Source of the DNA: Dysidea avara | Taxonomy: Eukaryota; Porifera; Demospongiae; Dictyoceratida; Dysideidae | Direction: 5' to 3' | Length of the DNA: 64,000 nucleotides | Assembly: GCF_963678975.1 (NCBI RefSeq) | Contig: NC_089282.1 | Span: 434,001 to 498,000 of the forward strand | Translations under genes and position numbers: made by a program | Notes under the pieces: generated by a model | The model's database searches: none | What the model saw: only the letters and a program-made list of their open reading frames with translations | What the model was told of the DNA's origin: nothing | Shown here: positions 10,911 to 63,857 of the stretch, piece after piece | Position numbering within the stretch: the first letter of the stretch is position 1 | How the letters are laid out: each line of letters starts with the position of its first letter

Positions 10911-10976
10911 CATAGTGTATGATTTATGTTAACTTGTATGGATCTATTTCAATCTGAACATTGTTTCATTCTGTAG

Positions 10977-18989: not shown

Positions 18990-21328
18990 TAGTGTTGTAA
19001 TATATAGTAATGTGTTCTAAATTTTGTTATTGTTGTTGTTATTGTAGAGCTTCACAAAATACTTTTAGTTTTAGTTATTAATTGTTAACAGTGAAGCCAG
19101 CAGGTACAATTTAGTTATTGTTAATATTTGTTATTTTTAATATTTATTATTGTTATTGTTACATTCAAAGGTAAATTACATATTCTATACGTATACATGT
19201 ATTAAATGTACTGATCATTAGCCTTAATCAGGACTTCTCTCTCTAAATTAGTGTTGGTTAAACGATTGCGTCTACCAATACAGCAGTACCCTGCTAAAGA
19301 AAAGGTGCGTTCTATTGGAGCACTAGATGCAGGTACTACCATTAAGTCTACTGCTAAGCGAAAAAGATTTGGTAATGTAGTTTCCAACTCTAACCAAAAT
19401 GTAAGAGCATCTTTTTTACTGGGCGTTGGTATGTTGAACCGCAATTCATAAAATCTCTCAATTTCACTTTCAGCAGTAGTTGCAGCTATACCTTTGTCAA
19501 CCTGGTGTGCTTCTAGTAATCTTTGGCTTATGATACTGGATAAGTGACGAAATTTCTTTAGAGGAGGTTGTTCATCACTGTTTGCTACCACAGACACAGT
19601 TTCTGTGCTTCCTGACTCAAGGGTGGTGTCAGTAAATTCTGATATTTCAGTTTTCAATGCAACTATAAGATGTGCCTTTACCACTGTGGTCTGTTGATCA
19701 TTCAAAATTAGTGTGTATTTTGGATCCAGAAATGTTGCAACTAAGTAATACACATCAAATCCAGCTGCAGAGGGATTCACATATTTATCAAAACGGCTTT
19801 TCAGCTCATTGTTCAACCTTTTTGATATGGTAGCCATTCCAGGCTTTGTAGACATCTCTTCCAAGTGATACTGTAATTCTACTACAATATAGGTACAACT
19901 GATGATATAGTGGTATATTCTTCCCCACTACACAGAGTTGTGTATTCTGCAAAGGGTTGCAGCAATTCTTGAATATTTTCTAGAACTCTCCATTCGCTGT
20001 TCTGCAAACCATCCCAGCTGTGCTCATCCAGAACTTGTATAACAGAAGCCTTGACTATTAAAAATCGATTAATCAGTAGATATGTAGAGCTCCACCTAGT
20101 TGGGCAATCTCCTAGTAGTTTTAAGCCAGCATTTTCAATCAGTTTTTCAGTTGCTTTTAATGATTTGTTAAATTTGCTTACTATATTCTTGGCTTTTTTA
20201 ATGGTGTGTCTAAATACACTACACTCATCAAATTTACTGACAACCAGTTGTAATGAATGGGCAAAGCAACTAAGCCTCCTATATATCCAACAAATGCTAA
20301 TTCATGTTCAAATTCATTTTCATCGAACTCTCTTTCTTGTTCATACATGTCTTGTTGATGTGATTCTTCGATGGTTTTTTCCTGATCAGGTAAAGAATCA
20401 TCTAAGCTGCCAGTGTCCAATACATCTACGTTATCTGTATCACACAATTCAAAATCTTCCTCATCATCACCTTCATTTTGCATATTTTCTTTTTGTTGTA
20501 GCTGTAGAATTTTGAAAGCCTTCACCATGTTGCTCCCATTATCAGTTATTATGCTTCCAATCTTGTGATCAGGAATGTTCCAATCTTTGAAGATTTGCAA
20601 AACAATCTTTAATACTTCCTCTCCTGTATGAGGGCTTGGCATGTGTTTCACTGCTAAAAGTGACATTGTGACGCTTGTGACTGGCAAAGAAATGAGCAGT
20701 GACACCAATAAAAAGAAGCAGTCATTCCCTTCTTGCTCCATATGTCAGTACAAAAATTTACTTTTCTAGCTTGCAACATGTGGGACAAAATATTGCCTTT
20801 TAAATCTATAAGCACTTCGTTTATCTTCTTTGACATCATATACCTAGATGGAATAGAGTACTTACTGTCTAATTCTGTGATTAGTGAAGAGAAAGTTGGA
20901 TCCTCAACCAAGCTAAAAGGGGCACTAGATGCTGCTTAAAATATAGATAACTTTTTTGTGATAGCCTTGCATTTAGGATCTTCATTATTATACAGCTTGG
21001 GCCTCTTAAGAAAAGTAGTGATTTTTGGTTGATTACTTTCCATTGAAAATTACAGGCAGCATTAGCTCTAGTACATGACTTCTTTTCATTTTCTTTCTCT
21101 TTGTTTTGCTTTAATCATAAATACTACCAGGGGAAGTGACTTTAACCAGCTAATTGTCAAAGCAAATCCTTAATGTTACAAAAACTCTGTGACCATTATT
21201 TTTATTGTTATTAATTGTCGCTGTCTATAAAAAATCTTTTAGTTATAGTTTTGTTATTGTTAACAATAAATTTTATCCCTTACAAAAACTGGTTTTTGAT
21301 ATTGTTATTGTTAACAATTACAACACTA
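18990..21328 (-). mobile_element. Full-length hAT-family DNA transposon (decayed)
   Basis: The terminal inverted repeats are TAGTGTTGTAA at 18990-19000 and TTACAACACTA at 21318-21328. They are flanked by 8-bp direct repeats TATATAAG (18982-18989) and TATGTAAG (21329-21336), seven of eight matching, the length expected for hAT. GTTATTGTTAACAAT-type subterminal repeats lie inside both ends. The transposase is on the minus strand. Total length is 2339 bp. Confidence 0.85.
19202..21090 (-). pseudogene. hAT transposase, broken by frameshifts
   Basis: Reading right to left: a Cys/Trp-containing N-terminal segment near 21050 that could be a BED-finger relic; FCTDIWSKKGMTASF near 20760 carrying the first catalytic Asp; SIITDNGSNMVKAF near 20545 carrying the second; an acidic linker; and the C-terminal dimerisation region with ASSAPIERTFSLAG near 19320. 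Frame changes are visible near 20735, near 20275 (Cys-Phe-Ala-His coding resumes in another frame) and near 19870, where the open frame 19202-19864 begins. The protein cannot be made from this copy. The family is a ZBED-like hAT transposase. Confidence 0.85.
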
Positions 21329-24862: not shown

Positions 24863-27314
24863 TTATATTACATTCTCATCCTGCTTGCATTTTTCTTCTG
24901 ATGTCATCTCACTGTTGACAAATAAAGACTGTTGTATTAACATTTTCTTAATTGAACTGGGTTTAGCTAGTTTAACAGTAGACTTCTTGGGATGTTTGCG
25001 TTGTGAATGAAATGGATTTTGTGGGATAATTTTTGTTGTTACTGGAGTATTATTGATGTAGTGCATAGTAGTTGGAGATTTCATATGAATAATATTAGTA
25101 GCTCTGCAAACAAAGTTATTAACGGTCTTCAATATGTTAGTATCATTGCAATGTGATGCAATTGACTGTAAAGTGGCAATATTCTTATGAACATGTGATG
25201 CTAATGATGAAGTCTGATGTGACAGAGAAGTCATTTCTTGTAATATTTTTGTGGTCTCATTCTGCTATAGTTGTGCATCACTTGTGATAGTATGAGAGGT
25301 ATTGTGTACATTATACATATTATACATATACATCACTTGTGATAGTATGAGAGGTATTGTGTACATTATACATATTATACATATACATCACTTGTGATAG
25401 TATGAGAGGTATTGTGTACATTATACATATTATACATATACATCACTTGTGATAGTATGAGAGGTATTGTGTACATTATACATATTATACATATACATCA
25501 CTTGTGATAGTATGAGAGGTATTGTGTACATTATATATATTATACATATACATCACTTGTGATAGTATGAGAGGTATTGTGTACATTATACATATTATAC
25601 ATATACATCACTTGTGATAGTATGAGAGGTATTGTGTACATTATACATATTATACATATACATCACTTGTGATAGTATGAGAGGTATTGTGTACATTATA
25701 TATATTATACATATACATCACTTGTGATAGTATGAGAGGTATTGTGTACATTATACGATACATATTATTCTGATAAAGTTTTCTTATTAGCAAGTGAATG
25801 TGCTTGCATATTGTTAAACGTACCAATGAATTAGGACATGTACAGCTAAATTGGTGGATACATATATCACATTCAGTACGCCGTAAAGGGCAATTTGGTG
25901 AGCATCTTACGTCTTCCTTATGAACATCATAGTACAGTAATGGGTTTTTGGATGAGACAACTCTCCACAAATCAAATCCATTGTCCTGTATTAAATCTGT
26001 TGATAATTCCACACTGGATTTATGTCTCTGGTTAATGCAACTGATCCTATGAGATACTTTTCCCTTTTCTAGCTTGAACAGGCGTTCAAATCCTTTATCC
26101 CTAGCTATCTTAAGTAACAAACGGATGCATTTGTCCACTCTTTTGTTAATTCTTCCCTTCATATATACATACTTGAGCAATCGATGAAAACTTTCAACAT
26201 GCATGTTTGTATTTATGCCTGCTTTTCTTCTATAGCACAAGGCCCACTGCTCCTTCTTTGCACTGTAATAGGTTATAAAGTATTCCGCAAATATACCTGT
26301 GTCTGGATGCTCTTGTAGTTGCTGTTCAAAGTTTAATAACATTGTGTTGAATGTGTTTATGTCTGTTTCCTGTGCTAATATGTGCAGTGAATGATATACC
26401 TGACATTGTAGCTCTGCATTAGCAATTTTGCTAGCAATAGCCCCCCTCCATGCTCTGTCTACATGCCAAGTACACAGTAACTTGTGTGGACTATCTGAAA
26501 ATGCATATTTCCATGCATTATAGAACTGGTCTGCGTCATCTGTCATTATCCAACGTGTATTAATCATTCCAACCCTCTGTTTGAGAGTTTCAAAGAATAA
26601 ATGTACCACGTGGTGATCTTCCCTACCATCCAGTTGGATAGCCTTCACTAAATTCATCAATTACCATGACAACGATTAATGTAAAATCATATCCTGTTGT
26701 TTTGAAGGTGGAATCAATGCACACTATGTTATTGCCAAACTCCTTCATTATGTGTGCTTGGTATGGTGTTTGTAATACCATCACAAAGTCGTTTTTGTTT
26801 AGATAATTATAAGCTGTTAGAACTACTCCCTGTTGCTTGTAAAACAACACAGGAGACTCCTTGTCACTCTGTTTTATTTCTTCCACCAGCATTGCTACAC
26901 TTGTAGCACCATCTGAATGTCTTTCAACAGATCTTAAAGAAAAAGCCCTTTCAATATTGAGGATATCCCTTTTTGTCATGATGTGGGACCGTTTTTCATC
27001 AACACAAACATTGTCTCTCACATCATCCAATATTCGATCAATCGTAACCCAGTCTGATAGTTTTTTAGCTATCTCAATGTGTTTTGATTTAGGAATACGT
27101 AGATGTCCGAGGGATACTGTGTGCCTATAGTGTGTACTACAGATTTCCACCTCAACGGTCCTTCAACTGTTTTCCTCACAGTTAAGCTAGCTGTGCAGTG
27201 GGCATTCAGTTTACAAGAGCCTTGAGATTTTAATGACCTCTTTCCACTACTAACTGTATTAAAGAATCCAGTTCTGTTACAATAATAGTACTCAACACTT
27301 TCATTGTTTATCAC
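24863..27314 (-). pseudogene. MULE-type transposase with SWIM finger (broken)
   Basis: Order on the minus strand: an N-terminal Cys/His-containing region (27314-27150); a helical region; CIDSTFKTTGYDFTL near 26690 with the first catalytic Asp; IMTDDADQFYNAW near 26540 with the second; MHVESFHRLLKY near 26190 with the Glu; and a SWIM finger FSCTCPN...ICKHIH near 25840. There are frame changes near 27140 and near 26635 (the first frame stops after EGYPTGW and coding resumes at REDHHVV). The frame then runs into the 55-bp array. A tail-like frame (FHSQRKHPKKSTVKLAKPSS, within 24863-25234) lies beyond the array and probably encoded the original C-terminus. No terminal inverted repeats were identified. 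Confidence 0.8.
25276..25765. repeat. 55-bp tandem array (nearly 9 units) inside the MULE transposase
   Basis: Units starting CATCACTTGTGATAG recur at exact 55-bp spacing: 25276, 25331, 25386, 25441, 25496, 25551, 25606, 25661 and 25716 (the last partial). Two sub-variants differ by ATACAT versus ATATAT. Because 55 is not a multiple of 3, the array shifts the reading frame unit by unit. There are no unique spacers. Confidence 0.95.
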
Positions 27315-27319
27315 TTTAC

Positions 27320-29100
27320 TGCCAGTTGATTTTACTGCCAGTTGAATTAATTTGTGTAGTACATATATCAGGCATCAAAACAATACCATATGTTGGAAAT
27401 TTGGAATCACAGTTGATCGATGCATATAGCTCATAATTACATAAGTTGAAGCTATGTACACCATATATGCAACATTTTAGTAAAAGGCTATGGATCAGTA
27501 CGTATATAGTTGACCAATAAGTAACTATAAAATATGTATACCAAATTCTATACAGTACATGCATACAGTCAGTCATGTGCTCCATACATTCAGCTTATAT
27601 ACAGCTAGTATACCTGTTTTTGCTGTAGTGACATGCAAGGTCTCTGCAATAAACTTCTTCTGCTGCCTATAAAGTAAAATAATGCATAAGATACTACGTT
27701 TGAAGGTGCAGTACCTTGAGGATTGTGATGATCTGCATTCCGTCTACTCTGTTCATAATGACACCTTAACAGATAATATCATGCAAGCAATGCTCATGAG
27801 ATCAGTCACTACAAGTACATAATACTAGCACACTATATCTCTTGAATCAGCAGTAAATTCATCATAGACTGGTGTAGTAGTGAAATACATACATAATCAT
27901 ATTACCTGATTCCATGGCTATTTTGGAGGTGCAGATTATGCTGGAGTTATTTAAATGCCTGGTATAATTTATAGTAAAGCAACAGTGTCATAATTTCCTG
28001 TACAAATTCTCATGTAGTAGCTCCATGATGTTTTTGATACACTCCAGCAAACTAGCCAACAGAATCCTATTTGTCTTGTCATAAACATTGATTGGCTAAT
28101 TTATTTTTGGTTTTGCATGTCCATCTTGTCAACTAGTGTTATCACAGTAACAGATCAATGTTACTTAGTAACATAATCTTTACCTGGTAACCATTGCTAA
28201 GCAACTGTTACTAGGTGTGAAATATTATAAAGCTTTTCAATAGCTTTATTTCAATTTTTTTACATAGCAACAATTGCTATTGTTTGTCTTCAAGAACATT
28301 GCAGAACTTAACCTCCTTATAACATTCTAAGTGCAAGACTATATTGGTGTAATTGCACAAATACTTAGAAATTCCACAATGGCTTCCAGTAAGAGTATAA
28401 TTATTATGCACTCTGCTTCCAGGTGTAAGATAAGATGTTGTACTAACATTAACACTACAGATAAGTTACTAGGATGATTGGTACTGTATTTTATTTAGTG
28501 CTGCACAGATAAATGCTTCAAATAATTGTTAGCCCAGCAGAATAAGACTCTTTTAGCTAAACCTTAGGCAGTGCAAAACTAACTATATGTTGCTGGTCCT
28601 ACAAAATTGACCAGGTGACCAGGCTATTTTTGCAACTTTTCAATGCGGTACACTACATTTGACATAACAGTACATGGAATTATAATGAACTGCTCAAAAT
28701 CACCTGCTGAACTTCTGGATATATTGGGATATTAACTTGACAAGTTCATGTTGAATTATCAGAGAAATCAAAATTTAACCCACTCTTTTAAAATTTCTTC
28801 CAACATGACACAAATTGACACTGTATGACTGCATCACAAGATAAAGTCATACACCAACTTTCATTTGATTCCTTCCATTACAACTTTAAGGCCTTGCCTC
28901 AAACTGCTGGATACACATTGGACAGACAGTATAATTATTTTGTATAATGAGCTGGTGTACAGGCCTTCTAAATAATAATAACAATAATGTTAATGTAGCG
29001 ACTGTAGGTGTTTTACTGTATGATTGCACAATACTTTTACTATTCAACTATATAGTGAAACAAGTCTTATTAGATCACTGTATATATATATATATATTTT
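27320..29100. other. No gene seen
   Basis: AT-rich sequence with short open frames. A (TA)n and T-rich run at about 29080-29114 lies immediately before the LINE 3' fragment. Confidence 0.4.
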
Positions 29101-29111
29101 ATTTTTTTTTT

Positions 29112-31770
29112 TTCAGGAGACTCAAAAAGACCTGGGAGTGATTGTCTCCAGTGACCTGAAGTGGTCAAATCACTACAATTCTATAATATCTAAAGCATAT
29201 AAATTGTTGGCTCTGATACGACGTACTTTTTGTTCCAATCACTACCCATCAGTCAAGCTACATCTGTATATTACTTTAGTTCGTCCTCATCTTACCTATT
29301 GCTCTCAGTTATGGCGACCGTACCTAATCAAGGACATATTATGTTTTGAGCGTATTCAACGTCGAGCAACCAAACACATCTTGAATAATTATAATATCAG
29401 CTACAAATCCAGGTTATTAGAACTCCATCTTCTACCATTCATGTATATCCTCGAGATTCAGGATGTTTTGTTTGCGATCAAGTCACTTAAGTCACCCACA
29501 AGAAACTTTGACATTAATAGGTACACTACAGGGTCACATTAATAGGTACATTACAGGGTCACATTAATAGGTACATTACAGGGTCACATTAATAGGTACA
29601 TTACAGGGTCACATTAATAGGTACACTACAGGGTCACATTAATAGGTACACTACAGGGTCACATTAATAGGTACATTACAGGGTCACATTAATAGGTACA
29701 TTACAGGGTCACATTAATAGGTACACTACAGGGTCACATTAATAGGTACACTACAGGGTCACATTAATAGGTACATTACAGGGTCACATTAATAGGTACA
29801 TTACAGGGTCACATTAATAGGTACATTACAGGGTCACATTAATAGGTACATTACAGGGTCACATTAATAGGTACACTACAGGGTCACATTAATAGGTACA
29901 CTACAGGGTCACATTAATAGGTACACTACAGGGTCACATTAATAGGTACACTACAGGGTCACATTAATAGGTACATTACAGGGTCACATTAATAGGTACA
30001 TTACAGGGTCACATTAATAGGTACACTACAGGGTCACATTAATAGGTACATTACAGGGTCACATTAATAGGTACATTACAGGGTCACATTAATAGGTACA
30101 CTACAGGGTCACATTAATAGGTACATTACAGGGTCACATTAATAGGTACATTACAGGGTCACATTAATAGGTACATTACAGGGTCACATTAATAGGTACA
30201 TTACAGGGTCACATTAATAGGTACACTACAGGGTCACATTAATAGGTACATTACAGGGTCACATTAATAGGTACATTACAGGGTCACATTAATAGGTACA
30301 TTACAGGGTCACATTAATAGGTACATTACAGGGTCACATTAATAGGTACATTACAGGGTCACATTAATAGGTACATTACAGGGTCACATTAATAGGTACA
30401 TTACAGGGTCACATTAATAGGTACACTACAGGGTCACATTAATAGGTACACTACAGGGTCACATTAATAGGTACACTACAGGGTCACATTAATAGGTACA
30501 CTACAGGGTCACATTAATAGGTACACTACAGGGTCACATTAATAGGTACACTACAGGGTCACATTAATAGGTACATTACAGGGTCACATTAATAGGTACA
30601 CTACAGGGTCACATTAATAGGTACATTACAGGGTCACATTAATAGGTACACTACAGGGTCACATTAATAGGTACATTACAGGGTCACATTAATAGGTACA
30701 TTACAGGGTCACATTAATAGGTACACTACAGGGTCACATTAATAGGTACATTACAGGGTCACATTAATAGGTACATTACAGGGTCACATTAATAGGTACA
30801 CTACAGGGTCACATTAATAGGTACATTACAGGGTCACATTAATAGGTACATTACAGGGTCACATTAATAGGTACACTACAGGGTCACATTAATAGGTACA
30901 TTACAGGGTCACATTAATAGGTACACTACAGGGTCACATTAATAGGTACATTACAGGGTCACATTAATAGGTACATTACAGGGTCACATTAATAGGTACA
31001 CTACAGGGTCACATTAATAGGTACATTACAGGGTCACATTAATAGGTACATTACAGGGTCACATTAATAGGTACACTACAGGGTCACATTAATAGGTACA
31101 CTACAGGGTCACATTAATAGGTACATTACAGGGTCACATTAATAGGTACATTACAGGGTCACATTAATAGGTACACTACAGGGTCACATTAATAGGTACA
31201 TTACAGGGTCACATTAATAGGTACATTACAGGGTCACATTAATAGGTACATTACAGGGTCACATTAATAGGTACATTACAGGGTCACATTAATAGGTACA
31301 TTACAGGGTCACATTAATAGGTACACTACAGGGTCACATTAATAGGTACATTACATTTACTCAGGGTCACACCAGATCCTCTACACATAATAAACTCAAA
31401 CATCGTCTCCATATTACTAACTTAAATAGAAACTCTTATTTCCATCGTCTTCCTCGTTTGTGGAATGCTCTTCCTGTAATCAATACCAATTTATCAATTG
31501 CAACCATCAAGGCTAAACTAAAGAAATTTATGTGGAATCATTTTGTAACTCATTTTGACGATGACAATCACTGTACCTACCATTATCTATGTCCGTGCAG
31601 CAAATGTCATGATCTCTCGCCACCATCAAACTTTCAAACACTATGGCTAAGTTATAATTAGTTAAAATAATTATAATGTATGTATAACTTGTGTTTTTAG
31701 GCTGCAAGCACCAGTTGCTTGCAGACCCTTGGCATACTTGCCATAAAGTAATAATAAATAAATAAATAAA
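29112..31770 (+). mobile_element. 5'-truncated LINE 3' end, split by a minisatellite
   Basis: From 29117 the frame encodes the C-terminal end of a non-LTR reverse transcriptase: ETQKDLGVIVSSDLKWS, LYITLVRPHLTYCSQLW, then FERIQRRATKHIL. At 29511 it runs into a 25-bp tandem array. After the array the same protein family resumes (RLPRLWNALPVINTN, near 31450) and ends at a stop at 31659-31661. A 3' hairpin (CTGCAAGCA / TGCTTGCAG, 31702-31724) and a TAATAATAAATAAA tail (to about 31770) follow. The upstream RT core and endonuclease are missing, as in typical 5' truncation. Confidence 0.85.
29511..31370. repeat. 25-bp minisatellite, about 74 units
   Basis: The unit is ACATTAATAGGTACAYTACA plus GGGTC. 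It repeats with almost no variation except a T/C at one position (ACATTACA versus ACACTACA). The first unit coincides with the LINE codons for INRYTTGSH, so the array grew from LINE coding sequence. The last unit carries an 8-bp insertion (TTTACTCA) before LINE sequence resumes. Confidence 0.97.
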
Positions 31771-31978: not shown

Positions 31979-34025
31979 TTATTATTTTTATTATTATTAT
32001 TAATGGACAAAAATTGCTTGGCAGTACAAGACTGTCAAGCTAGGCCGCAGGCCTTTGAGAGTGCCCATATCTTGTTGTTCTCCATAAATCATCAAGATTC
32101 TTCTTAAACAATGCCACGATTGGTGCAGAAATAACATCTGCTGGAAGAGAATTCCACAAATTAACTACTCTGTTGGTGAAAAAATTATGCCTTACTAGCA
32201 GCCGAGATCGAAATTTAAAGAGTTTACGGTGGTGACCTCTGGTGGTATCCGTATTACTCAAAGTGAAAAATGAGGTAGGGTTGATGTCATAGTAACCATT
32301 CAATATCTTGTAGGTCTCAATTAGATCTCCCCTTTGACGTCTACAAAACAGTGAATATAAACCAAGTCTCTCTAGATGAGTTTCGTATGGTAAATCAAAT
32401 AAACTAGGTAATAACTTGGTGGCACGTCTCTGTACTTTCTCTAAGAGATCAATATCTTTCGCCAAGTAAGGGCTCCAGACCTGGATGCAATACTCCAAGT
32501 GAGGTCTGACATACATTTTGTACAAAAAAGTCAACAAGTCAACAGAAAAAAGTTTGAAGGACCTTCTTAGCAAACCAAGAACTTGCATAGCTTTTGCTGC
32601 AGCCTTACGACACTGTAGAGATGGTTTCAAGTCTTCAGTGCACCAAATACCAAGATCTTTTTCTTCTTGCACTTCTGTGATTTCAAAGGGTAAGTTGGTG
32701 GAACTGCCCAGCATAGAGTAGGTGAACGGAGCAGAGTTACTAATCCGCATCAGCTTACATTTAGCTATATTGAACCGAAGCAACCATGTGTGAGACCACT
32801 GCAACAATCGGTCAACATCACTTTGCAGCCTAAGGTGATCGTCAAAGCTCTGAATAACAGAATAAATTTTTGTATCATCAGCAAACATTCTTACATTACT
32901 TTCAATAAGGTCTGGGATGTCATTAACATATAATATAAACAACAAGGGCCCTAAAACAGACCCCTGGGGGACTCCACTCACCACCTGAGCCCAAGACGAC
33001 AAGTGACCATTCAACACAACTCTCTGGAAGCGGTTGGAAAGAAAGTTTGATAGCCACAAAGACAAATTACCACGAACACCAAATGCTTCCAACTTGGAGA
33101 TCAATCTATGATGAGGTACAGAATCAAATGCCTTACTGTAGTCTAGAAATATGACATCAATGCCAAATCCTTGATCCAAAGCAGAAGTCCACTCTTCAAA
33201 AGTTGATAACAAGTTAGTAAAACAGGACTTCCTGTTAACAAAACCGTGTTGCTCTCCATTAAGTATGCCTTGCCCATCAAGAAAGGTTACCAATTCAGAA
33301 TGTATAATAGATTCCAGGATCTTAACAACTAAAGATGTCAAACTAATTGGCCTGTAGTTGGAAGCTTGGTTTCTTTGACCCTTTTTAAAAACAGGAACAA
33401 CGTGTGCCTGTTTCCACTCATCAGGGAGGACACCACTAGATAAGGATTGAGATTACAGAATGGTTAAAGGTACATAAAGTGTGTTAGCACAAGCTTTTAA
33501 GACGTAAGAATGTATACCATCTGGGCCAGGAGCTTTGTTAACCTTGAGCTCAAGTAGCTTCTGAAGAACTGTTGACTCTGTTATGTCAATATCACAAATA
33601 CTATCTTCAGACACAAAGGAGGGAACAGGCATACTAGATAAATTTTCTTTGGTAAATGTTGACTCAAAGAATTGGTTTAGGGTTTCAGTCACCTCCTGGT
33701 CATCAGCAGTGAGAGAACCATCACTCTTTATCAATGGGCCAATACTAGGTCTAATCTTCTGTTTAGACTTAATGTAACTGTACAGTGCTTTTGGATTAGA
33801 ACGAAGCTTGTCTAACAGGGACCGTTCATAAGAATTTCTAGCAGATCGTATCTTACATTTGACATCATTGTGTTTTGCTGCATAGGTGGCATAATCAGAT
33901 CTTGATTTGGAATGTTTATATTTGGTAAAGGAAAGTTGCTTAGCTTTAATGGCTTTAGAGAGGTTTTTGGACCACCAAGAGTAGGTTTATTATTTTTAGG
34001 AATGGAAGTCGGGATTTGAAAACAG
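31979..34025 (-). mobile_element. Second LINE, 5'-truncated, minus strand
   Basis: The element runs from a linker region (WWSKNLSKAIKAKQ-type sequence, near 33970) through the reverse transcriptase to a 3' hairpin (arms 32016-32025 and 32031-32040, one mismatch) and an A/T-rich (TAA)n tail at about 31979-32003. No endonuclease domain was found upstream. The 3' layout matches that of the plus-strand LINE at 29112-31770. Confidence 0.85.
32040..33734 (-). pseudogene. LINE reverse transcriptase (CR1/jockey-like), broken
   Basis: The frame 33341-32040 (433 codons) holds the RT palm motifs: LDYSKAFDSVPHHRL (motif A), SGVPQGSVLGPLLFILYVND (motif B) and VRMFADDTKIYS (motif C, catalytic ADD). The thumb and C-terminal region follow with VRPHLEYCIQVWSPYL and VNLWNSLPADV. 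The preceding fingers region is in another frame: 33734-33453 contains KVNKAPGPDGIHSYVLK, ending in a stop at 33453. Upstream linker coding (about 34000-33760) is in yet another frame. At least two frame breaks therefore make it non-functional. It would have copied LINE RNA at nicked target DNA. Confidence 0.9.
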
Positions 34026-37108: not shown

Positions 37109-37988
37109 ATGGCAAGTAATGACGGCGTGAAGCATTTGATCCTTACTGGAGTGAAAATTAGTAATCGTGAAGTAGGCAGGGGAGCGTATGGGAGAGTGTT
37201 TGAAGTGGATTATAATGGGACCACGTGCTTTGCTAAACAGCTACACTCAATTCTGGAGTCTGAACATTTCAAACAACTCTTCCTCCACGAGTGTCTGTTA
37301 CACAGTAAACTTGATCATTCAAACATAGTGAAGATGTTAGGAGTGTATTATCTTAGTGAAGGAGATGTTCTACCAGTTCTAGTGATGGAACTGATGGAGT
37401 ACAACCTCACTAGATTACTGGACAAGTCCCAGGATATCCCCATGTATGTGAAGTTGTCAATATTACAAGATGTCAGTAGAGGAGTCCATTACCTCCACAC
37501 TCTAAACCCTCCTGTGATACATCGTGATCTCAGCTCCAACAATATCCTCTTGAATAACAACTTGGTAGCAAAAATTGGTAGTTTTGAAGAAGCCTGTGTG
37601 ATGTCATCAGACTCATCAAAAGAAATAATAGGAAGCAGTTCTTTTTTTATGCCCCAACATGCTCAGAATGCATTACCATTAGATGTGTTCTCATTTGGTT
37701 GTGTGGTCTGTCATGTGATCAGCCAACAATGGCCAATTCGTAGAGGTGAAGAGTTCATCCCCAAGCCACTCAACTTTGTTCGTTTACCACTAAAACATAT
37801 ATCACCACAAGTATATTGTGAATTATCACAAATATATAAGACATCGGAAGTTCAGAGGCGTCGTTGCTTCATCAATGAGATCGGTGATGGGTCACTTAAA
37901 CAACTGGTGATATCATGTTTGGATGATGATCCAGAAAGACGTCCTCCAATATCACAGGTGTGTGGGAGGATTACCAGTATAATAACAG
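37109..37988 (+). CDS. Copy B exon 1: kinase-like domain
   Basis: It encodes residues 1-293 plus one base of the next Gly codon. The activation segment differs from copy A: DFGLAKK is replaced by SFEEACV, and the APE-like PPEA is replaced by PQHA. The segment before the last helices is longer than in copy A (NFVRLPLKHISPQVYCELSQ inserted). The intron 37989-38050 is removed at GTGAGC...TATAG. Confidence 0.75.
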
Positions 37989-40783
37989 GTGAGCTGACAT
38001 CTTTGTATTGTATTAGTGTGTAGTGTAATGTGTCAACCTTACTACTATAGGTCACTATTCTAATGATGACACTATCAAGATGGCCTACTCACTGGCTATG
38101 AAACAAGGAGTAGCTGAGTCCAGGGACCTACAGGTGCTACTAGTTGGAGCAGAGAACACCGGAAAGACTTGTCTCATCTCATCTTTTCTTGGTGAGCAGT
38201 TTGTTGAGGGACAAGCAGCCACCGAAGCAGTTGAAGTTGATGTGTGTAAAATTTACTGCAAAGACTGGACCAGAATCAGTGACTCTGACAAGACTGACCT
38301 CCTCCATCATCAGTTTGTTGACCAGCTAAAAGAGAAGGCTTTGGATATGATGGACACCAGAATGGAAGTTGTTGCATTGCTCAGTACATCCACTAAGCCA
38401 AGTGTCAAAAACCTAGATGTACCCCATCAAGATAAAATGTTTGAAAAGCTCAAAGGGAGGATTGTAAAAGGAATGACGCCTCTTAAAACTACCAATAATG
38501 TAGAACCCTCCAGTAGACCTGTAGTGAAGTCTGGGTCCACTTTAACTGCCCCTCCCACTAGTACTGATGTTTCTAGTAAGCATCTTCCTGAGCCACACCC
38601 ACAAGACCTGCAGGAAGTTTTCAACACTTCCCAATATGATCCTGGTAGCCTGAATCTTGCTCTGTGGGATTTTCCGGGTCAGGTGATCTTCCATAACACT
38701 AACTCTGTTTACATTTCAGCTAGTGGAGTAGTGACAATCACGTTTAACGCCTCCATGAAGTTGACAGGTGAGGTTGTTCCTCGTGAAGGTTCCCCTACAC
38801 CTCCAGAGTGTGCTACCATCATCTCCAGTATCCACTACTGGCTACAGGTAGTTGATTCAATGTGCTCAGTAGAGGGAAGGGAGGGAGACCTGTCTCCATT
38901 ACAACCAGCTGTAATACTAGCAGGTACTCACATTGACTTGCTTGATCCTGACATCAAGGTTGCTCGGAAGATAGTGAAGAAAATGATATTACCTCAACTT
39001 AAAGAGGAACTATCTGACAAGCGTTATGCTCAACACTTGGTTGGTATGGGTGAAGGCATTGAGGCTGCTCTAGAGCAATTCTGTTTCTTTGTCAGTAACA
39101 AGTGTAGGGATGAAGAGATAGAACGTCTGAAAAATACTGCCATTAAAGCTGCTACTTCACTTAGGAAAAAACAGCCAATCTATTTTCTTAAAATTGAGCG
39201 AGCACTTTTGCAGCACAAAGAGCAGGTAATATCAAAATCCACAATGGTTGAGGTGGTTACAGAAAGCACATTTCCAATAGCTGAAAACAGCTCAGAGTTT
39301 GAAGGTGTACTAAGGTACTTTCATGACAAACGTGTCATCTTGTACTTCAGCCAGATTGAGTCTTTGAAGGATCTGGTGATCTTGTCCCCACGATGGTTAG
39401 CTAGGCTCTTCAGCTACATCATCACTGCTCATTCTTACAAAAGAGGTAAAGGATTTGATGAAGGTTGGAAACGGCTTACCAAATATGGTATTCTCCATGA
39501 GAGTCTTCTCCAGCATATGTTGGACAAGTTCCACTCAGACTACCCCAGTGTAGTAAAGGTTAGCAAGGAACAAGTGGTGGATATTCTGCTGTGTTTCCAC
39601 CTGGTAGCTCGCATCACTAGAGAAGCTTGGTTCAGTGAAGAGGGTTATCCATCACTACCAGATAGTGGTGACACCTTCATCGTTCCTTCTCTTGTTCCTC
39701 GTGATGATGGGAGGAATCCTCCTAACACCAAACAGGAGAGGATCATCTACTTCAAGTTTGTCAGTGGCTTTATCCCAACCAGTCTCCTCAACCAGTTGAT
39801 AGCTGATTGTATATGTCGTAATGTGGAGAGGAATAGTCGACTGTTGTGGTGAGTGTAGTGTTAATGAGTGTGGTGTATTGAGTGGTGGATTGTAGGATGA
39901 GACATGGCAAGGTGGGGCTACAATTGGGAGCAGATCAGAAATACTACATCAGCCGATGTGAGGAGAAGAAGAGTATCCAGTTGATGATCACTATGTCAGT
40001 GAGAGATGATGTGAAGAGTGGTGAAGAGAGGAGGGAACTGATTGATGACATCACTAGATTACTGGATGACATCATGAAGGTGTTCATGCCAGCAGTGAAG
40101 AAGAGGCCAGTCTTATTGGTTCCCTGTCCAAACTGTCCTACCCTCCATATCACTCTTGATGAGGTGTGTAGTGGTAAGATTATCTTCTGCTCTAATAAAG
40201 ATGGTGATGTTGATCTTCCACCTGGTTACTATGGTGACCTGTTACCTCATAGATCACATGATCCTAATACTCTACCAGGTGAGGTAATAATCTCATTACT
40301 GATTGTATAGTGTAAGTGTTTATAGGAGCTGACAGGAAGTTGGAAGTGTTCACTAAATATTATGCTAGTTTAACTAGTGTCCTACCCATCAAGAACATCA
40401 CCAGTCATTTGATCAGTGTAGGAGTGATAAGTTTTGAAGATGAGGAGGTTATCCAACAAATGACTAGATCATCAGAAGGATCTTCTCTGGTTCTTAGGAA
40501 GATAGCTAGCTCCCTCAAAGCTGATCAGACCAAAAGTTTTGACATGTTATTATTGACCATGGAGGAACATGGAGGTGTGTCTTGTGATGAACTAGCCAAT
40601 CAAATAAGAGAAGAACTAGCACAAACCACAACTGGTATAGTAACAAACTGTATAGTGTAATAGTTGTGATGTGTTCCATTAGGTGACCATCAACCATCAG
40701 CTACACAAGACACATCTAAAATGTCTACTGTAACAATGAGATATGATGAAGACAAAAGTAACCATCTTGTGTACCAGTACTAG
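37109..40783 (+). CDS. Kinase-ROC-COR-CARD-like signalling protein, copy B (five exons)
   Basis: Exons 37109-37988, 38051-39848, 39896-40278, 40326-40634 and 40683-40783 join in frame to 1156 residues. Domains: kinase 15-290 (glycine loop GRGAYG 23-28, K43, HRD 138-140, N145, but DFG replaced by SFE at 158-160 and no APE, so probably a pseudokinase); ROC GTPase from about 320 (P-loop GAENTGKT 326-333, switch-like DFPGQ from 500, THID 586-589); COR from about 640 to 1000 with a CPNC pair; CARD-like helical bundle about 1030-1105. The order is the reverse of LRRK kinases, and LRRs are absent. All introns are 47-62 bp with GT-AG ends, and the total length is an exact multiple of three, which supports the model. 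The start is the ATG homologous to copy A; an in-frame ATG also exists at 37043. The cellular role is inferred only: GTP-switched signalling with death-fold contacts. Confidence 0.8.
38051..39848 (+). CDS. Copy B exon 2: ROC GTPase and COR
   Basis: It carries P-loop GAENTGKT, WDFPGQ and GTHID. The COR part includes VILSPRWLARLFSYIITAHS and KFVSGFIPTSLLNQLIADC. The Thr/Ser/Pro-rich stretch between about 38400 and 38620 is a flexible insert in the GTPase domain and differs most from copy A. A GTGAGT donor at 39849 splits the Trp codon. Confidence 0.8.
39896..40278 (+). CDS. Copy B exon 3: COR end and Cys linker
   Basis: It starts after GATTGTAG and encodes RHGKVGLQLGADQKYYISRC, a charged helix, and VPCPNCPTLHITLDEVC, whose CPxC pair may bind metal. 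A GTGAGG donor follows at 40279, phase 1. Confidence 0.7.
40326..40634 (+). CDS. Copy B exon 4: CARD-like domain
   Basis: It encodes SLTSVLPIKNITSHLISVGV, ISFEDEEVIQQM, EGSSLVLRKIASSLKADQTK and SFDMLLLTMEEHGG. The helix pattern, with HLI..GVIS.EDEE.I and F..LL..ME at the end, is that of a CARD. A GTATAG donor at 40635 and phase 1 lead to exon 5. Confidence 0.65.
40683..40783 (+). CDS. Copy B exon 5: terminal exon
   Basis: After a TTCCATTAG acceptor it encodes GDHQPSATQDTSKMSTVTMR, then YDEDKSNHLVYQY and TAG at 40781-40783. It is hydrophilic with no domain. Similar short exons follow downstream, so other ends may be used. Confidence 0.55.
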
Positions 40784-40938: not shown

Positions 40939-41245
40939 TAGCTACACATTCATCACATGATGGGGACACATCACATGATGGGGAGACAACAAGACCATCA
41001 ACCAGTCATGATAAAGGCAACAGGTAATAATATATTAATGTTGTTGATGAAATATTATTATTAATGGTGCTAATAAAATGATCACTAGAGAGGTACAGTC
41101 ATCACATGTTGGAAGAACACAACCACCAACTGGTAATGTAGCTGAACTATATTGTGTGTAGTTGTGATATGTTCCTTTATTAGGTGATCTAGCTGTGGGA
41201 GACACACCTGATCAGAATGATGATCAGGACACACACAAAGGTGAC
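40939..41245 (+). other. Possible alternative 3' cassette exons of copy B
   Basis: Three short coding-like stretches, each ending in a GT donor, resemble exon 5 and its intron. They are near 40945-41020 (ACCATCAACCAGTCATGA, donor GTAATA), near 41092-41131 (CAACCACCAACTG|GTAATG) and near 41184-41239 (TTTATTAG|GTGATCTAGC, donor GTGACT). The intron between the last two resembles the exon 4/5 intron (TAGTTGTGATATGTTCC). They may be duplicated tail exons or decayed copies. Confidence 0.35.
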
Positions 41246-41328
41246 TTGTATAGTATGTGTTGAGCTAAGCTTAAGAGCATATGAAAATATTTGTCAATTT
41301 AGCCATAATGTACCATTAATGTAAATGT

Positions 41329-43850: not shown

Positions 43851-45993
43851 TGCAAGTTATTCTATAGGGAATTCAGCTGCAAACAGTTAATTTTATACAC
43901 AGTTCAACTACAAGCCAAGTCACCCTGTAAAGAGCTCAACTATAAATATATTGCTGTAGAGATTCAGGACATCACAAGTCACACTGAAGAGAGTTCAGCT
44001 ATAAACAAGTCATGCACCCTGTAGAGAGTTCAGCTACAAACGGGTCACTCTCTACAGAATTCAGCTACAAACAAGTCATCGTGTAGGGAATTCAGCAACC
44101 AAAAACCACCCTGTAAAGAATTCAGCTATACAGACAAGTTACTCTATAGAGAGATCAGCTAGAAACAAGAGAGAGTTCACAACTAGAAGACGTCACCTTG
44201 TAGAGAGTTCAGCTACAAACAAATCACCCTGTAGAGAGATCAGCTAGAAGAAGTTACCTTGTAGGGAGTTCAGCTATACAAGAAACTACCCTGTAGAGAG
44301 TTCAGCTGCAAACAAATCACCGTGTAGAGATTTCGACTACAACCAAATCACTTAGTAGAGAGTTCAGCTACAATCAAATCACCCTGTAGAGATTTCAGCT
44401 ACAACCAAATCACCCTGTAGAGAGAAACAAGTTACAGAGATCAGCTAACAGAAGTCACCTTGTAGAGAGTTCAGCTACAAATAATAAGTCACCCTGTAGA
44501 GAGTTCGGCTACAATGAAACCATCCTGTACAGAGTTCAGCTAGAAACAAGTCACCCTATAGAGAGATCAGCTAGAAACAAGTCACCCTGTAGAGAGCTCA
44601 GTTACAAACAGACCACCATGTAGAGAGTTCAAGTAGAAACAAGTCATGCTGTTGAGAGATCAGCTAGAAGAAGTCACTTTGTAAAGAGTTCAGCTACAAA
44701 AAAACTACCCTGTGGAGAGTTTAGCTATGAACAGATCACCCTGGAGGGGAAACAAGCTACAAACAAGTGTCTCTGTAGAGAGATCAGCTAGAAGAAGTCA
44801 CCTTGTAGAGAGTTCAGACACAAACAAACTACCCTGTAAAGAGTTCAGTTACTAACAAATCATGCCCTGCAGAGGGTTCAGCTACAAACAAATCAGTTCA
44901 GCTACAACCAAATCACCCTGTAGAGAATTCAGCTCCAAAAAGTCACCCTGTAGAGAGTTCAGCTACAACCAAATCACCCTGTAGAGAGATCAGCTAGAAC
45001 AAGTAACCCTGTAGAGAGATCAGCCAGAAGAAGTCACCTTGTAGAGAGTTCAGCTACAAACAAATCATCCTGTAGAGAGCTCATTTACAAAAAAAAAAAT
45101 CACCCTGTAGGGAGTTCAGCAGCTATGAACAGATCATCATGTAGAGAGTTTAGCTACGAACAGATCACCCTGTAGAGAGTTCAGCTAGAAACAAGTCACC
45201 CTATAGAGGGATCAGCTAGAAACAAGTCACCCTGTAGAGAGCTCAGCTCCAAATAGATAGAGTTCAGCTACAAAAAGATCACCCTGTAGAGAGTTCAGCT
45301 ATGAAAAGATCACCCTAGAAAGAGTTTAGCTTGAAACAAGTCGCCCGGTAGAGAGATCAGCTAGAAACAAGTAACCCTGTAGAGAGATCAGCCAGAAGAA
45401 GTCACCTTGTAGAGAGTTCAGCTACAAACAAATCATCCTGTAGAGAGCTCATTTACAAAAAATCACCCTGTAGGGAGTTCAGCTATGAACAGATCATCAT
45501 GTAGAGAGTTTAGCTACGAAAAGATCACCCTGTAGAGAGTTTAGCTACGAACAGATCACCCTGTAGAGAGTTCAGCTACGAACAGATCACCCTGTAGAGA
45601 GTTCAGCTACGAACAGATCACCATGTACAGTTCAATTCAAGTAGAAACAAATCATGCTGTTGAGAGATCAGCTAGAAAAAGTCACTTTGTACAGAGTTCA
45701 GCTACAAAATATACCCTGTAGAGATTTTAGCCACAAACAATTTACTCTGTAGAGATATCAGTTTGAAACAAGTCACTCTGTAGAGAGATCAGCTAGAAGA
45801 AGTCACCTTGTAGAGAGTTCAGTTGCAAACAGATCATCCTGTAGAGAGTTCATTTATTTAAAAATCACCCTGCAGAGAGTCAGCTGCAAACAAATCACAC
45901 TGTAGAGAGATCAGCTTGAAATTATACACAATGTAGGGAGTTCAGCTACGTACAAGCAATTCACCCTGTAGAGAGTTCAAGTTACCCTATAGA
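43850..45993. repeat. Degenerate ~31-bp minisatellite
   Basis: Units of the form CACCCTGTAGAGAGTTCAGC plus TACAAACAAAT alternate with a TAGAGAGATCAGCTAGAAGA subtype. A longer block is itself duplicated (about 44985-45170 versus 45355-45550), showing higher-order amplification. The array continues at 47592-47720 after an insertion. Confidence 0.9.
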
Positions 45994-47591
45994 CAGTGTT
46001 GCGCTGCTACTTTTACAAAGTAATATATTACATATTACTCGTTACTGCCACTGCGATGAAATACGTTACAGTTATATACAAGTACACATAAAAGTTTGGA
46101 ATTTTCAACTAGAGTAGGAACCATAGCACATTGATAAAAAGTACTGAAACAAGCTGGAGTAGTGCACGATTTTAAATCACAGTAAAACAATAAGAAGTGT
46201 TATATCCCTACTGTGCAAATCCGTTATGGTATCTTGAGCACAGTAGGGATATAACACTTTTCATTGTTTTATTGCGATTTAATATCGTGCACTACTCCAG
46301 CTTGTTTCAGTACTTTTTATCAGTGTGCTATGGTCCCTACTCTAGTTGAAAATTCCAAATTTTTCCGTGTACTTGTTTGTTAACTTTTTTTTGTAAATAA
46401 TTATTATGACTGGTGAACCCACGCATACCGCATCTGAAATGACGCCACTCATCCCAATTATTGTCTGAAAAGTGAAGTATCCATTATGCTTCGTTGTCAG
46501 CTATCTTCAACCCGTTACGCAGTGTTTCGAATCAAGAACTGTTAGAAAAGCACCTCTGTAATCCACGCATATCGAAAGAAATGGTGCCGTGCGCCCCGGG
46601 TTATATCAATAATTATCGTCTGAAAAGTGAAGTATCCATTACGCTTCGTTGTCGGCTATGTTCAACCTGTTACACAGCAGTACGAATCAAGAACTGTTTG
46701 AAAAGCACCTCTGCTATCAAAATAGCCACTATGACAAATACGGACGACTTCCGCTACGAAGGGAAGCCATTACGGGCTACCGCCAAATCAACACTTTTCA
46801 CTGTCAGCAAAGATGAATGGGACACAAAGGAGGACACTGGTAAGTCCATGAAGAAGGCATTGCACATACTGCGGTATGCCAAAAGGCACCTGTCGGGCCG
46901 AAGCAATATCGAACAGTGAAAAAATCAAGCCCGTAGCCTTAGCTGTTATTGAGTTACGCTTGTCTGAAGGCATCAGTCAGTCAGTCAGTAGAAAATTCCG
47001 TTAAATAAATTATTTTTAAAATTCCATAGCAACTTATTGATAGCGTTTCGGGTCGATCTGAAAGCTTGTTTGGGCTTAGTTTTACCTAGCCAATACTGCC
47101 TCATCGTCTTCAGGGAAAATTGAGGTTGGTTTTTGGGTGATATTATTTTGTGGGCCACGCCTACTCCTTTGTGGTCCCTACTATACACTACTATCGTAGT
47201 GTATGATTGTGTATGATTACTTCAATTTAAAAGTAACTAGTAATATGTTATATTACATATTACACAATGTATAAAGATACTTTGTTAGGTAATAATATTA
47301 CAGTAGCGCGCTAGTTAAGTAATGCGTTAGTACTTTGTTAGGTAATAATGTTACAGTAACACACTAGTTAAGTAACGCATTATACTTCGTTCGGTAATAT
47401 TACAGTAACGCGTTAGTACTTCGTTAAGTAATAATATTACAGTAACAAGTAGTTTAGCGCTATTTAATAACGCATTACTTATGTGAAGTGACAATCCGTT
47501 AGATATTACCAGCGTTGGAAATGTAGCGCGTTATATTACTTCGTTACTGCATTAAGTAATAATATTATGTAATGCGTTACGCCCAACACTG
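45994..47591. mobile_element. hAT-like non-autonomous element inserted in the minisatellite
   Basis: Ends CAGTGTTGCG (45994) and CCCAACACTG (to 47591) are inverted. The flanking 8-bp sequences CCTATAGA (45986-45993) and CCTGTAGA (47592-47599) are a target duplication with one mismatch, both lying in the minisatellite unit. The interior is rich in GTAATATATTAC and GCGTTA motifs and is split by the composite repeat at 46076-47205. Confidence 0.8.
46076..47205 (+). repeat. Composite palindromic repeat, copy 3
   Basis: Full foldback at 46076-46376, then the shared right part with coding-like SKDEWDTKEDTGKSMKKALH (within 46494-46919), then the terminal GGGCCACGCCTACTCC block and TGGTCCCTACTATACACTAC near 47173-47192. 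This is the best-preserved copy for comparing boundaries. Confidence 0.8.
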
Positions 47592-56194: not shown

Positions 56195-56730
56195 GCTGTG
56201 CCTAGAGTCACGGCACCGTGACTGGACATTTTGCTGCTAAAGTTACGGTGCAGTCACCCAGAATTCACACTGAAGGTAAGTTTTTGTTGAGTTTGAGGCG
56301 AGCTAGGGTTGGCAGGAGTCTCTTATTCCCCGAGTATTCGACTTTAGGGCACACGCCTAGTAGTATGCCCCGAGCATTCAACTTTAGGGGACGCGCCTAG
56401 TAGTATGCCCCGAGCATTCGACTTTAGGGGATGCACCTTGTACTTTAGAGTTAGGGTTAGGGTAAGGGTTCGGGTAAGGGTTCAGGTTTAGTTTCTTCTT
56501 TACTGGTGTTATTTATATAGGCTTCTTCGTGAATGACATATTTAAGGTACAAACTAAGGGAGCAGGGTAGCTGGGACCGCAGTGATATAGTGGTAGGGTG
56601 CTGGGCTAGATAGAGTATGGGATGTCCTGGATTCGATCCTCGCTTTAACCAATTTTTTTTTCTTCGTTTTTTTAGGTTTTCTGTCTAAGTTTTTTTTTAT
56701 TCACGTGATTGCTGTGACTCTAGGCACAGC
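56195..56730 (+). mobile_element. 536-bp miniature element with tRNA-like promoter
   Basis: Ends GCTGTGCCTAGAGTCAC (56195-56211) and GTGACTCTAGGCACAGC (56714-56730) are perfect inverted repeats. TATTATTAAT flanks both sides (56185-56194 and 56732-56741, one base offset). Inside are three tandem units of about 40 bp with CCCCGAGCATTCRACTTTAG (about 56328-56440), a GGGTTAGGGTAAGGG run (about 56454-56490) and a tRNA-like block. Confidence 0.8.
56575..56665 (+). promoter_or_regulatory. tRNA-like Pol III promoter (A and B boxes) with T-run
   Basis: ATATAGTGGTAGGGTGCTGG resembles a tRNA D-arm A box and CTGGATTCGATCCTCG a B box, about 40 nt apart. A run of eight Ts follows at about 56653 as a Pol III terminator would. 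The T-stem and acceptor stem do not pair well, so this is not a working tRNA gene but may still be transcribed. Confidence 0.5.
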
Positions 56731-61958: not shown

Positions 61959-63857
61959 TTACATTTCGGAAGGCTCCGTTTCCATATCAATATGTAAGTT
62001 TGAAGTCCCCTCTGATGACAGGATAGCTCGTCCGTATGTGGACTGGCTCTTGTCACCAGCTGGTAGTCTGTGGTAGAACTTCCGAAAGGTACTCTCAGAT
62101 GACCAATCTGCTGCCTGTAGGATGTCAGAGATGGTAACACCAGAGCAAGCTGCTTTTGAAGCTGCTGCTCCTCTCACCGAATGGGCCTTGAATATGCCCG
62201 TATCTATACCCGCTTCTTGTAAGCAATTCTTCAGCCATCTAGCAATCGTACTGCTGGAGACTGGGTCATGCTTTCCAATCCAGGAAAGAAATAGAGTGGT
62301 TTTCCCACTGTCCTTGCCTGAGATAGGGGCACGGAACTCTTGAGTTCTCTTCTCGTATGCCTGAATCGTGACAACTGGGCAGATGAGTGGTTCGTCTGGA
62401 AATCTGGGATAAAAGAAATCCGCTAGGGGTTTTGATGGTCTGCTTTGTTTTGACAAGTGTTGGGGTTTAAAGACTACGCCCTCAGCAGTGAAGGACCGGC
62501 TTCTGATGTCTAACTTACTCAAATCCACTGACCTTGAAGGCCTAGTCAATGCCAGGAGCATTGTTGTTTTTAGAGTAAGTGAGCGAAGCGTAAGTGCCTC
62601 ATTAGTACCCAATTGTTTCAGGTACCTTAATACCACTCCATTGTCCAATATCCCAGAAAGTAGAATATCTTGGCTGGGGGGTCTCTCATTGAATACTCCC
62701 TTGAGTAACCTGGTGATCAGGGGGTGCTGCCCCACCGGTTGGCCATCCACCTCGGCATGGACAGATGAAATTGCTGAACGGTAGGCATTGAGGGAACGGT
62801 ATTGGTATCCCTTCTCATACAAGTTGGCTAAAAAATTGGCAACATCCTCTACAGGTCCAACAAGGGGATTCCTATCCCATTGATGACACCAATCTGTCCA
62901 TTTGGTAAACAATGAATTGTAGTTGGATTGCGTTTTTGACCTCCAGGAGGACAAGAGGAGGTCTGAAGCTTGTGAAGAAATTCCCCGTGATTCAAAGGAT
63001 TCCCTGAGATGGGCCATGCAACTAAGTCTGGAACTCCCTGACTCATTATGAATTCCTGGTCTGATGGGAGCATAACCAGATCCTCTACTGAGGGTAGTAG
63101 CCGCGGGTAATCCTCCAGGAGTCCCAGGATGGTTGGGAACCATGGTTGAGTACTCCAAAGGGGGGTGATCATGATCAATCTGACCTTCTGATGATTCACC
63201 TGTGACAGGCATCGAGGTATCAGACACCATGGGGGGTTGGCATATCCCTGCGTCATTGACCAAACCTGGCTGAAGGCATCTGTCCCCTCTGCCTCTGGGT
63301 CTGGTCTCCAGCTGAAATACCTCGGTAACTGTCTTGTGAGGCGGGAAGCGAATAGGTCTATCCCGCAAGGCCCCATCTGGGACTGGATTCTGCTGAATAT
63401 ATTGGGGTTCAGCATCCAGTCGCACCTGTCCCTCACAGTTCTGGACTCCTGATCTGCTGCTGTATTTTGTACCCCTGGGAGATGTTCTGCCGCTAGGTAT
63501 AAATTCCGTTGCAGAGTTCATTCCCATATGGTCACTGCTAGATTGCAGAGTGGTTGGGAGTGAGTCCCGCCCATCCTGTTTATGTAGGACACCGCAGTTA
63601 TGTTGTCCAACTTCAGTTGTATAGTTATGCCGGACTTCTCCTTCGTAAAGCACTGGATTGCTAGGAATGCTGCAAGGAGCTCCAGGTAATTGATGTGGTT
63701 CAGGGACTCTGCCTTTGACCACTGTCCCCCTGTCCGGGTTTCCCCTTGGCGTGCTCCCCAACCCATGTTGGAGGCATCGGACTCGATGGTCATGGATGGC
63801 CTGCGAGGTCGTAGGGGTGATACCATCAGGGAACTCCTGTCTAGTGATATCCACCAC
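61959..63857 (-). CDS. DIRS tyrosine recombinase
   Basis: The frame is open for 632 codons. The N-terminal part (before about 63030) overlaps the RT/RNase H frame and its true start is unclear. From about residue 275, RESFESRGISSQASDLLLSS and KTQSNYNSLFTKWTDWC form the core-binding domain. The catalytic domain follows with LALTRPSRSVDL (first Arg), AHSVRGAAAS (His-x-x-Arg) and FRKFYHRL (catalytic Tyr), all key residues present. The enzyme would integrate circular or linear element DNA by recombination. This frame looks intact, in contrast to the neighbouring RT/RNase H frame. It ends about 3 bp before the inverted repeat. Confidence 0.85.
   Translation of the reverse strand: MVDITRQEFPDGITPTTSQAIHDHRVRCLQHGLGSTPRGNPDRGTVVKGRVPEPHQLPGAPCSIPSNPVLYEGEVRHNYTTEVGQHNCGVLHKQDGRDSLPTTLQSSSDHMGMNSATEFIPSGRTSPRGTKYSSRSGVQNCEGQVRLDAEPQYIQQNPVPDGALRDRPIRFPPHKTVTEVFQLETRPRGRGDRCLQPGLVNDAGICQPPMVSDTSMPVTGESSEGQIDHDHPPLEYSTMVPNHPGTPGGLPAATTLSRGSGYAPIRPGIHNESGSSRLSCMAHLRESFESRGISSQASDLLLSSWRSKTQSNYNSLFTKWTDWCHQWDRNPLVGPVEDVANFLANLYEKGYQYRSLNAYRSAISSVHAEVDGQPVGQHPLITRLLKGVFNERPPSQDILLSGILDNGVVLRYLKQLGTNEALTLRSLTLKTTMLLALTRPSRSVDLSKLDIRSRSFTAEGVVFKPQHLSKQSRPSKPLADFFYPRFPDEPLICPVVTIQAYEKRTQEFRAPISGKDSGKTTLFLSWIGKHDPVSSSTIARWLKNCLQEAGIDTGIFKAHSVRGAAASKAACSGVTISDILQAADWSSESTFRKFYHRLPAGDKSQSTYGRAILSSEGTSNLHIDMETEPSEM

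Follow-up and report, generated by a model that had tools for sequence, protein, structure and literature searches.

A predicted ROCO gene with a probable pseudokinase domain and a CARD-like end in the sponge Dysidea avara, and its damaged upstream paralog

RIPK2 is built with a kinase at its N terminus and a CARD at its C terminus. The excerpted text of one source describes it as a CARD-containing serine-threonine kinase and reports that Trichoplax sp. H2, like cnidarians, has no RIPK1/2 ortholog (PMC6321704). Among ROCO proteins, DAPK1 is presented in excerpts as the third group and the only one with the kinase before RocCOR and without leucine-rich repeats (LRRs), with a death domain after (PMC6337361, PMC6320773), and Trichoplax adhaerens is credited, again in excerpts, with at least 17 ROCO genes that have CARD and death domains among their partners (PMC4104024, PMC11378527). 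Here, we analyze locus B, a gene at positions 37109-40783 on the forward strand of a 64,000-nucleotide stretch of the Dysidea avara genome (the window; contig NC_089282.1, positions 434,001 to 498,000). We interpret locus B, with a probability of roughly 45%, as a genuine animal-type ROCO gene of the layout pseudokinase-ROC-COR-CARD-like, in which a GTPase switch would gate CARD clustering and the pseudokinase would act as a scaffold.

The gene model of locus B is sound. As proposed in the initial annotation, its five exons join exactly in frame to give 1156 residues and a stop codon; all four introns (62, 47, 47, and 48 nucleotides) are GT-AG, and each contains in-frame stops if left unspliced. 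The longest open stretch in the locus is 607 codons, whereas in 200 mononucleotide shuffles it averages 91 and never exceeds 173, which rules out a chance open frame, and no in-frame methionine lies between the ATG and the closest upstream stop. The parts of the gene are as follows.

37109-37988, forward: exon 1, start codon and kinase domain (residues 1-293), a predicted pseudokinase (splice model, Pfam Pkinase)
37989-38050, forward: intron 1, 62 nucleotides, GT..AG, phase 1
38051-39848, forward: exon 2, ROC GTPase domain, COR-A and the start of COR-B (splice model, Pfam)
38146-38169, forward: ROC G1/P-loop GAENTGKT, residues 326-333 (by inspection)
38665-38682, forward: ROC G3 WDFPGQ (by inspection)
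38920-38940, forward: ROC G4-like AGTHIDL (THID) (by inspection)
39175-39693, forward: COR-A, residues 669-841 (Pfam E 2e-10, 41.2 bits against a cut-off of 35.3)
39739-40142, forward: COR-B, residues 857-975, across intron 2 (Pfam E 7.6e-6, 26.2 bits, just below the cut-off of 27.0)
39896-40278, forward: exon 3 (splice model)
40326-40634, forward: exon 4, CARD-like domain, residues 1022-1123 (40328-40633)
40683-40783, forward: exon 5, short tail and stop (splice model)

Beyond the last exon, short open stretches at 40942-41262 follow ATTAG acceptors and are phase-compatible with exon 4 (ATHSSHDGDTSHDGE... and GDLAVGDTPDQNDDQDTHKG...); they may serve as 3' exons in place of exon 5.

A Pfam scan of the full-length protein returned six families up to E 1 (Pkinase, PK_Tyr_Ser-Thr, COR-A, Roc, COR-B, and Ras), and the order of kinase, ROC, COR, and C-terminal domain that had been read from motifs is borne out by this profile search, with Pkinase, Roc, and COR-A passing their cut-offs and COR-B falling just under. 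The Roc match (E 2.3e-10, 41.2 bits against a cut-off of 27) has its best stretch at residues 322-362, and Ras matches at E 8.9e-6. The tandem of ROC and COR that marks the ROCO family is thus present in locus B, together with the motifs that we take to be G1, G3, and G4; a long insertion separates the first two of these, with 165 residues from G1 to G3. Against PDB sequences the ROC-COR stretch gives a weak match to LRRK2 (E 0.0068), and an NCBIfam scan of residues 1-685 returned seven families, all of them kinase, GTPase, or lanthionine-synthetase models far under their cut-offs.

The kinase domain named in the initial annotation is matched by Pkinase at residues 19-285 (E 5.9e-30, 105 bits, above the cut-off) and by PK_Tyr_Ser-Thr (E 3.9e-24). 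That annotation, however, passed over two altered catalytic sites within the domain, as well as a second copy of the gene, paralog A, which lies 33 kb upstream of locus B.

37571-37594, forward: changed DFG site in locus B, KIGSFEEA, residues 155-162, compared to KLCDFGLAK in paralog A (protein alignment, CTR1 alignments)
37646-37663, forward: changed APE site in locus B, FMPQHA, residues 180-185, compared to FMPPEA in paralog A (nucleotide alignment; the protein alignment is gapped here)
4151-7498, forward: paralog A, kinase part 4151-5006 with DFG and PPE kept, then ROC-COR-CARD remnants

Active eukaryotic protein kinases are recognized by the Lys of VAIK, the Asp of HRD, the Asp of DFG, and the Glu of APE. 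Locus B keeps GRGAYGRV, Lys43, Glu61, HRD at residues 138-140, and a DPERRPP motif, in which we take the Gly-loop, the ATP-site Lys, the HRD, and the subdomain XI Arg to be preserved. Of the active-kinase set, Lys43 and HRD are therefore present, whereas GSF stands at the DFG site and PQH at the APE site (CDFG and PPEA in paralog A), and because of these two changes the kinase is probably inactive, i.e., a pseudokinase. It is unlikely that the domain phosphorylates despite its altered motifs, as a signaling kinase regulated by the GTPase in the manner of DAPK1 or LRRK2: the retained Gly-loop, Lys43, Glu61, HRD, and subdomain XI Arg, the strength of the Pkinase match, and the response of DAPK1 kinase activity to GTP state described in an excerpt (PMC6337361) would all be in keeping with activity, but the replacement of DFG by GSF and of APE by PQH, an activation segment 27 nucleotides shorter than that of paralog A, and a full-length Pkinase score of 105 bits compared to 131.8 bits for the kinase part of paralog A point the other way. 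Returning to the kinase domain of locus B, CTR1 and IRAK4 lead its PDB sequence matches (best 60 of 69 at E up to 1e-14), with, further down, the LysM and SYMRK plant receptor kinases, WNK, TAK1, roco4 (7.1e-16), CDK6, and LIMK1, and no DAPK entry among them. These sequence matches suggest what we take to be the TKL group.

A tblastn search of the window with the locus B protein found only paralog A and locus B, plus one row at E 8.4 that we discount as chance rather than a third ROCO copy. Likeness between the copies begins 16 bases ahead of the ATG and ends about 10 bases beyond the intron-4 donor, the 5' flank and exon 5 being unalignable; paralog A retains donors and acceptors at introns 1-3 and the donor at intron 4, and the COR-A profile is matched in a piece of it (E 2.2e-11). 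Fusion of two neighboring genes is ruled out by the short canonical intron 1, which is the same in paralog A at 61 of 62 bases, and by the domain order common to both copies. Paralog A has a TGA stop in exon 3 and three frame-breaking changes relative to locus B, comprising a 1-nucleotide gap (~6069), a 10-nucleotide gap (~6898), and a 4-nucleotide insertion (~7428), the first of which sits in a run of A bases and could be a sequencing error. The damage is complementary, in that paralog A combines an intact-looking kinase with a broken remainder and locus B combines an open frame with altered kinase sites. Length changes within the kinase domain (21, 27, and 72 nucleotides net) all keep the frame, and locus B stays open through its very divergent activation segment.

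Over 3306 bases aligned without gaps, introns 1-3 among them, the two copies differ at 236, and these differences are clustered, with 41 of them in a single 129-nucleotide window in the activation segment compared to a maximum of 24 in 2,000 permutations. The patches of divergence lie at ~37209-37268, 37569-37688 (presumably the activation segment), 37740-37868, 38324-38588 (presumably the ROC insertion), and 40190-40268 (presumably the end of COR-B). In the activation segment (residues 154-196) the synonymous divergence (dS) is 0.36 and the nonsynonymous divergence (dN) 0.43, values which, like those that follow, depend on the alignment and on small counts (7.5 synonymous differences in this segment). 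Elsewhere in the kinase dS is 0.19 (residues 1-95), 0.03 (96-153), 0.13 (197-212, 14 codons), 0.51 (213-262), and 0 (263-294), and past the kinase it is 0.08 (295-372), 0.22 (373-510), 0.08 (511-665), 0.09 in COR-A, 0.09 in COR-B, and 0.03 in the CARD segment; codons omitted for gaps or stops number 26 of 294 in the kinase, 44 of 138 in the ROC insertion, 14 of 509 in residues 511-1019 (13 gapped, one stop), and none of 104 in the CARD segment. Because the differences cluster, and because dS in the activation segment exceeds the adjoining values of 0.03 and 0.13, the pattern favors patchwise segment exchange with a more distant paralog over in situ decay.

We propose that locus B would be expressed as a protein in which the ROC-COR pair forms a GTP-regulated switch, that the state of this switch would set the closeness of the C-terminal CARD-like domains, and that these domains, once clustered, would recruit CARD-bearing partners of caspase or adaptor type. 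The N-terminal kinase fold, with the ATP-site Lys and HRD kept and no DFG or APE, would serve as a docking or allosteric scaffold without phosphate transfer, and the catalytic version would be supplied by paralogs with an intact DFG, for example the kinase part of paralog A. Such a pseudokinase version would allow phosphotransfer-dependent ROCO functions to be separated from scaffolding functions. If this reading is right, a layout of kinase, ROC-COR, and death fold evolved on two or more occasions out of different kinase and adaptor components, and the placing of a nucleotide switch ahead of death-fold assembly would be a recurring design.

A number of results weigh against this interpretation, and the first set concerns the C-terminal domain, for which the earlier CARD assignment had been made by helix pattern. 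CARD is the sole Pfam family matched by the isolated exon-4 domain (E 0.0095), which is as far as that assignment holds, since the score of 16.4 bits is under the gathering cut-off of 23.9 and CARD is not among the six families listed for the full-length protein. A 231-residue piece with COR-B and the exon-4 domain matches CARD at E 0.014, and the corresponding domain of paralog A at E 0.013, although the latter is 95% identical to that of locus B and so not independent. None of nine controls (one reversed, eight shuffled) matched a death-fold family, but three matched some unrelated family, one of them at E 0.0044, so that the CARD E-value taken alone is weak; the assignment is plausible, and what supports it, rather than the E-value, is the naming of CARD in advance by the initial annotation. 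No Death family was found for the isolated domain up to E 10 (Pfam, with filters that drop most matches above 0.1), and no PDB chain was found up to E 10 (phmmer; two-sequence profile). A crude helix-propensity scan fits about six helices, which is only suggestive. DAPK1 offers a relevant precedent, as its Death domain was poorly folded in isolation and still bound ERK2 (PMC3726526, in excerpt), from which an irregular death fold can serve as an interaction module.

The second set concerns selective constraint. The A/B comparison shows it clearly in just two places, COR-A (dN/dS 0.18, from 10 synonymous and 7 nonsynonymous differences) and the P-loop segment (4 synonymous, 0 nonsynonymous). 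The ratio is 0.48 in ROC residues 511-665, 0.62 in the ROC insertion, 0.65 in COR-B, 0.81 over the whole kinase (26 synonymous, 79 nonsynonymous), and 1.28 in the CARD segment (2 synonymous, 9 nonsynonymous), and part of this signal may come from neutral decay of paralog A. The high values in the kinase and CARD segments, along with the three frame-breaking changes and the stop in paralog A, are what would be expected if locus B belonged to a lineage-specific multigene family and were itself in decay, turning into a pseudogene like paralog A, with its motif losses as damage under relaxed selection and no scaffold role. We regard such decay as a serious but doubtful alternative: locus B is open for 1156 codons with GT-AG introns, the differences are patchy to a degree that no permutation reached, and the raised dS of the activation segment relative to its neighbors, small counts notwithstanding, is predicted by exchange with a distant paralog and not by uniform decay. 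A search for relatives in other species confirmed none, from five pattern matches in genome contigs and three in viral contigs.

Two further points bear on the proposed mechanism. Some kinases that lack a canonical motif are active, which tempers the prediction of a pseudokinase. As for the switch, excerpts report an effect of GTP at ROC on the kinase activity of DAPK1, and a shift in the monomer-dimer state of the C. tepidum Roco protein with GTP turnover (PMC6320773, PMC6337361); LRRK2 dimerization in cells, on the other hand, is described in excerpt as not nucleotide-regulated, and DAPK1 as dimerizing via its Roc and kinase domains and not COR (PMC6320773), so that dimerization set by GTP does not hold for ROCO proteins in general.

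Elsewhere in the window, a dispersed repeat is present in three copies (1212-2914, 9960-10935, and 46077-47222) that are 83-90% alike piece by piece, and part of it recurs in inverted orientation at 11172-11561; two related frames of 147 codons (2217-2660 and 46476-46919) gave no Pfam match up to E 0.1. Tandem arrays include a 25-bp unit at 29511-31355 (73.8 copies, 98% matches), which overlaps the end of the 29024-29542 frame, reverse-transcriptase-like by reading only, and a 55-bp unit at 25276-25756 (8.7 copies, 99% matches), which overlaps a minus-strand frame at its end; that frame matches MULE weakly and under the cut-off (0.023). A 31-bp minisatellite (AGTTCAGCTACAAACAAATCACCCTGTAGAG) with copies ~70% alike occupies 43853-45985, and AT skew is 0.265 in 44001-46000. 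On the minus strand, a hAT dimerization region (19205-19927, 1.2e-9) and a reverse transcriptase (32043-33452, RVT_1 1.3e-32) were matched, and an element at 61959-64000, at the window end, is DIRS-like by reading only. A degenerate TTAGGG array at 56445-56491 (7.7 copies, 76% matches) is telomere-like, yet internal to the window.

LRRK1, LRRK2, and the Dictyostelium Roco kinases, the second ROCO group, join a kinase to ROC-COR, as locus B does. Locus B departs from them in having the kinase ahead of ROC-COR instead of behind, a CARD-like end, and a kinase that is probably inactive, and no LRR family was found in it up to E 1 (Pfam), in place of the LRRs before ROC and kinase after COR of that group. 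RIPK2 resembles locus B at both ends, with a kinase fold and a CARD or CARD-like domain; locus B has ROC-COR between them and has lost DFG. The Trichoplax adhaerens ROCO set represents an early-branching animal expansion with CARD partners, and the order kinase-ROC-COR-CARD is not described in the excerpted accounts of it (PMC4104024, PMC11378527). Nor is that order described in the titles or abstract openings among the open-licence literature matches listed, which is no proof of absence, and the exact combination may already have been drawn in a published figure.

We also entertain, as a speculative and rather unlikely extension, that locus B belongs to a ROCO class apart from the three recognized groups, in which RIPK2-like ends were built around a GTPase core independently of DAPK1, the nucleation of CARD filaments in early-animal cell-death or immune signaling is gated jointly by a GTP switch and a catalytically dead kinase, and segment exchange between paralogs swaps active and dead activation loops.

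The closest comparison is with DAPK1, which shares with locus B an N-terminal kinase, a central ROC-COR, a subsequent death-fold-type domain (CARD-like in locus B), and the lack of LRRs. The initial annotation described an inverted LRRK-like order; kinase first and death fold last do contrast with LRRK, but the DAPK1 group was overlooked, and because DAPK1 has its kinase before RocCOR and ROCOs with CARD and death domains are reported in Trichoplax, the inversion by itself is not new. The shared order would also fit a divergent DAPK1 ortholog which lost its ankyrin repeats and whose Death domain is mis-scored as CARD, a reading that we set aside as very improbable given the kinase type and the lack of ankyrin and Death matches. 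The DAPK1 kinase is of the calmodulin-dependent type, whereas that of locus B is nearest CTR1 and IRAK4, the leaders among the best 60 of 69 PDB matches, which include no DAPK; DAPK1 has ankyrin repeats, whereas the Pfam scan of locus B up to E 1 lists no Ank family and leaves 36 residues from the Pkinase match (ending at 285) to the Roc match (starting at 322); and DAPK1 ends in a Death domain, whereas locus B has no Death match up to E 10 and a CARD-like end. Locus B further differs from DAPK1 in having no DFG at its catalytic site. Taken together, these sequence comparisons indicate that what distinguishes the predicted protein of locus B from DAPK1 is not its kinase-first order but its type of kinase, its lack of ankyrin repeats, and its CARD-like end.

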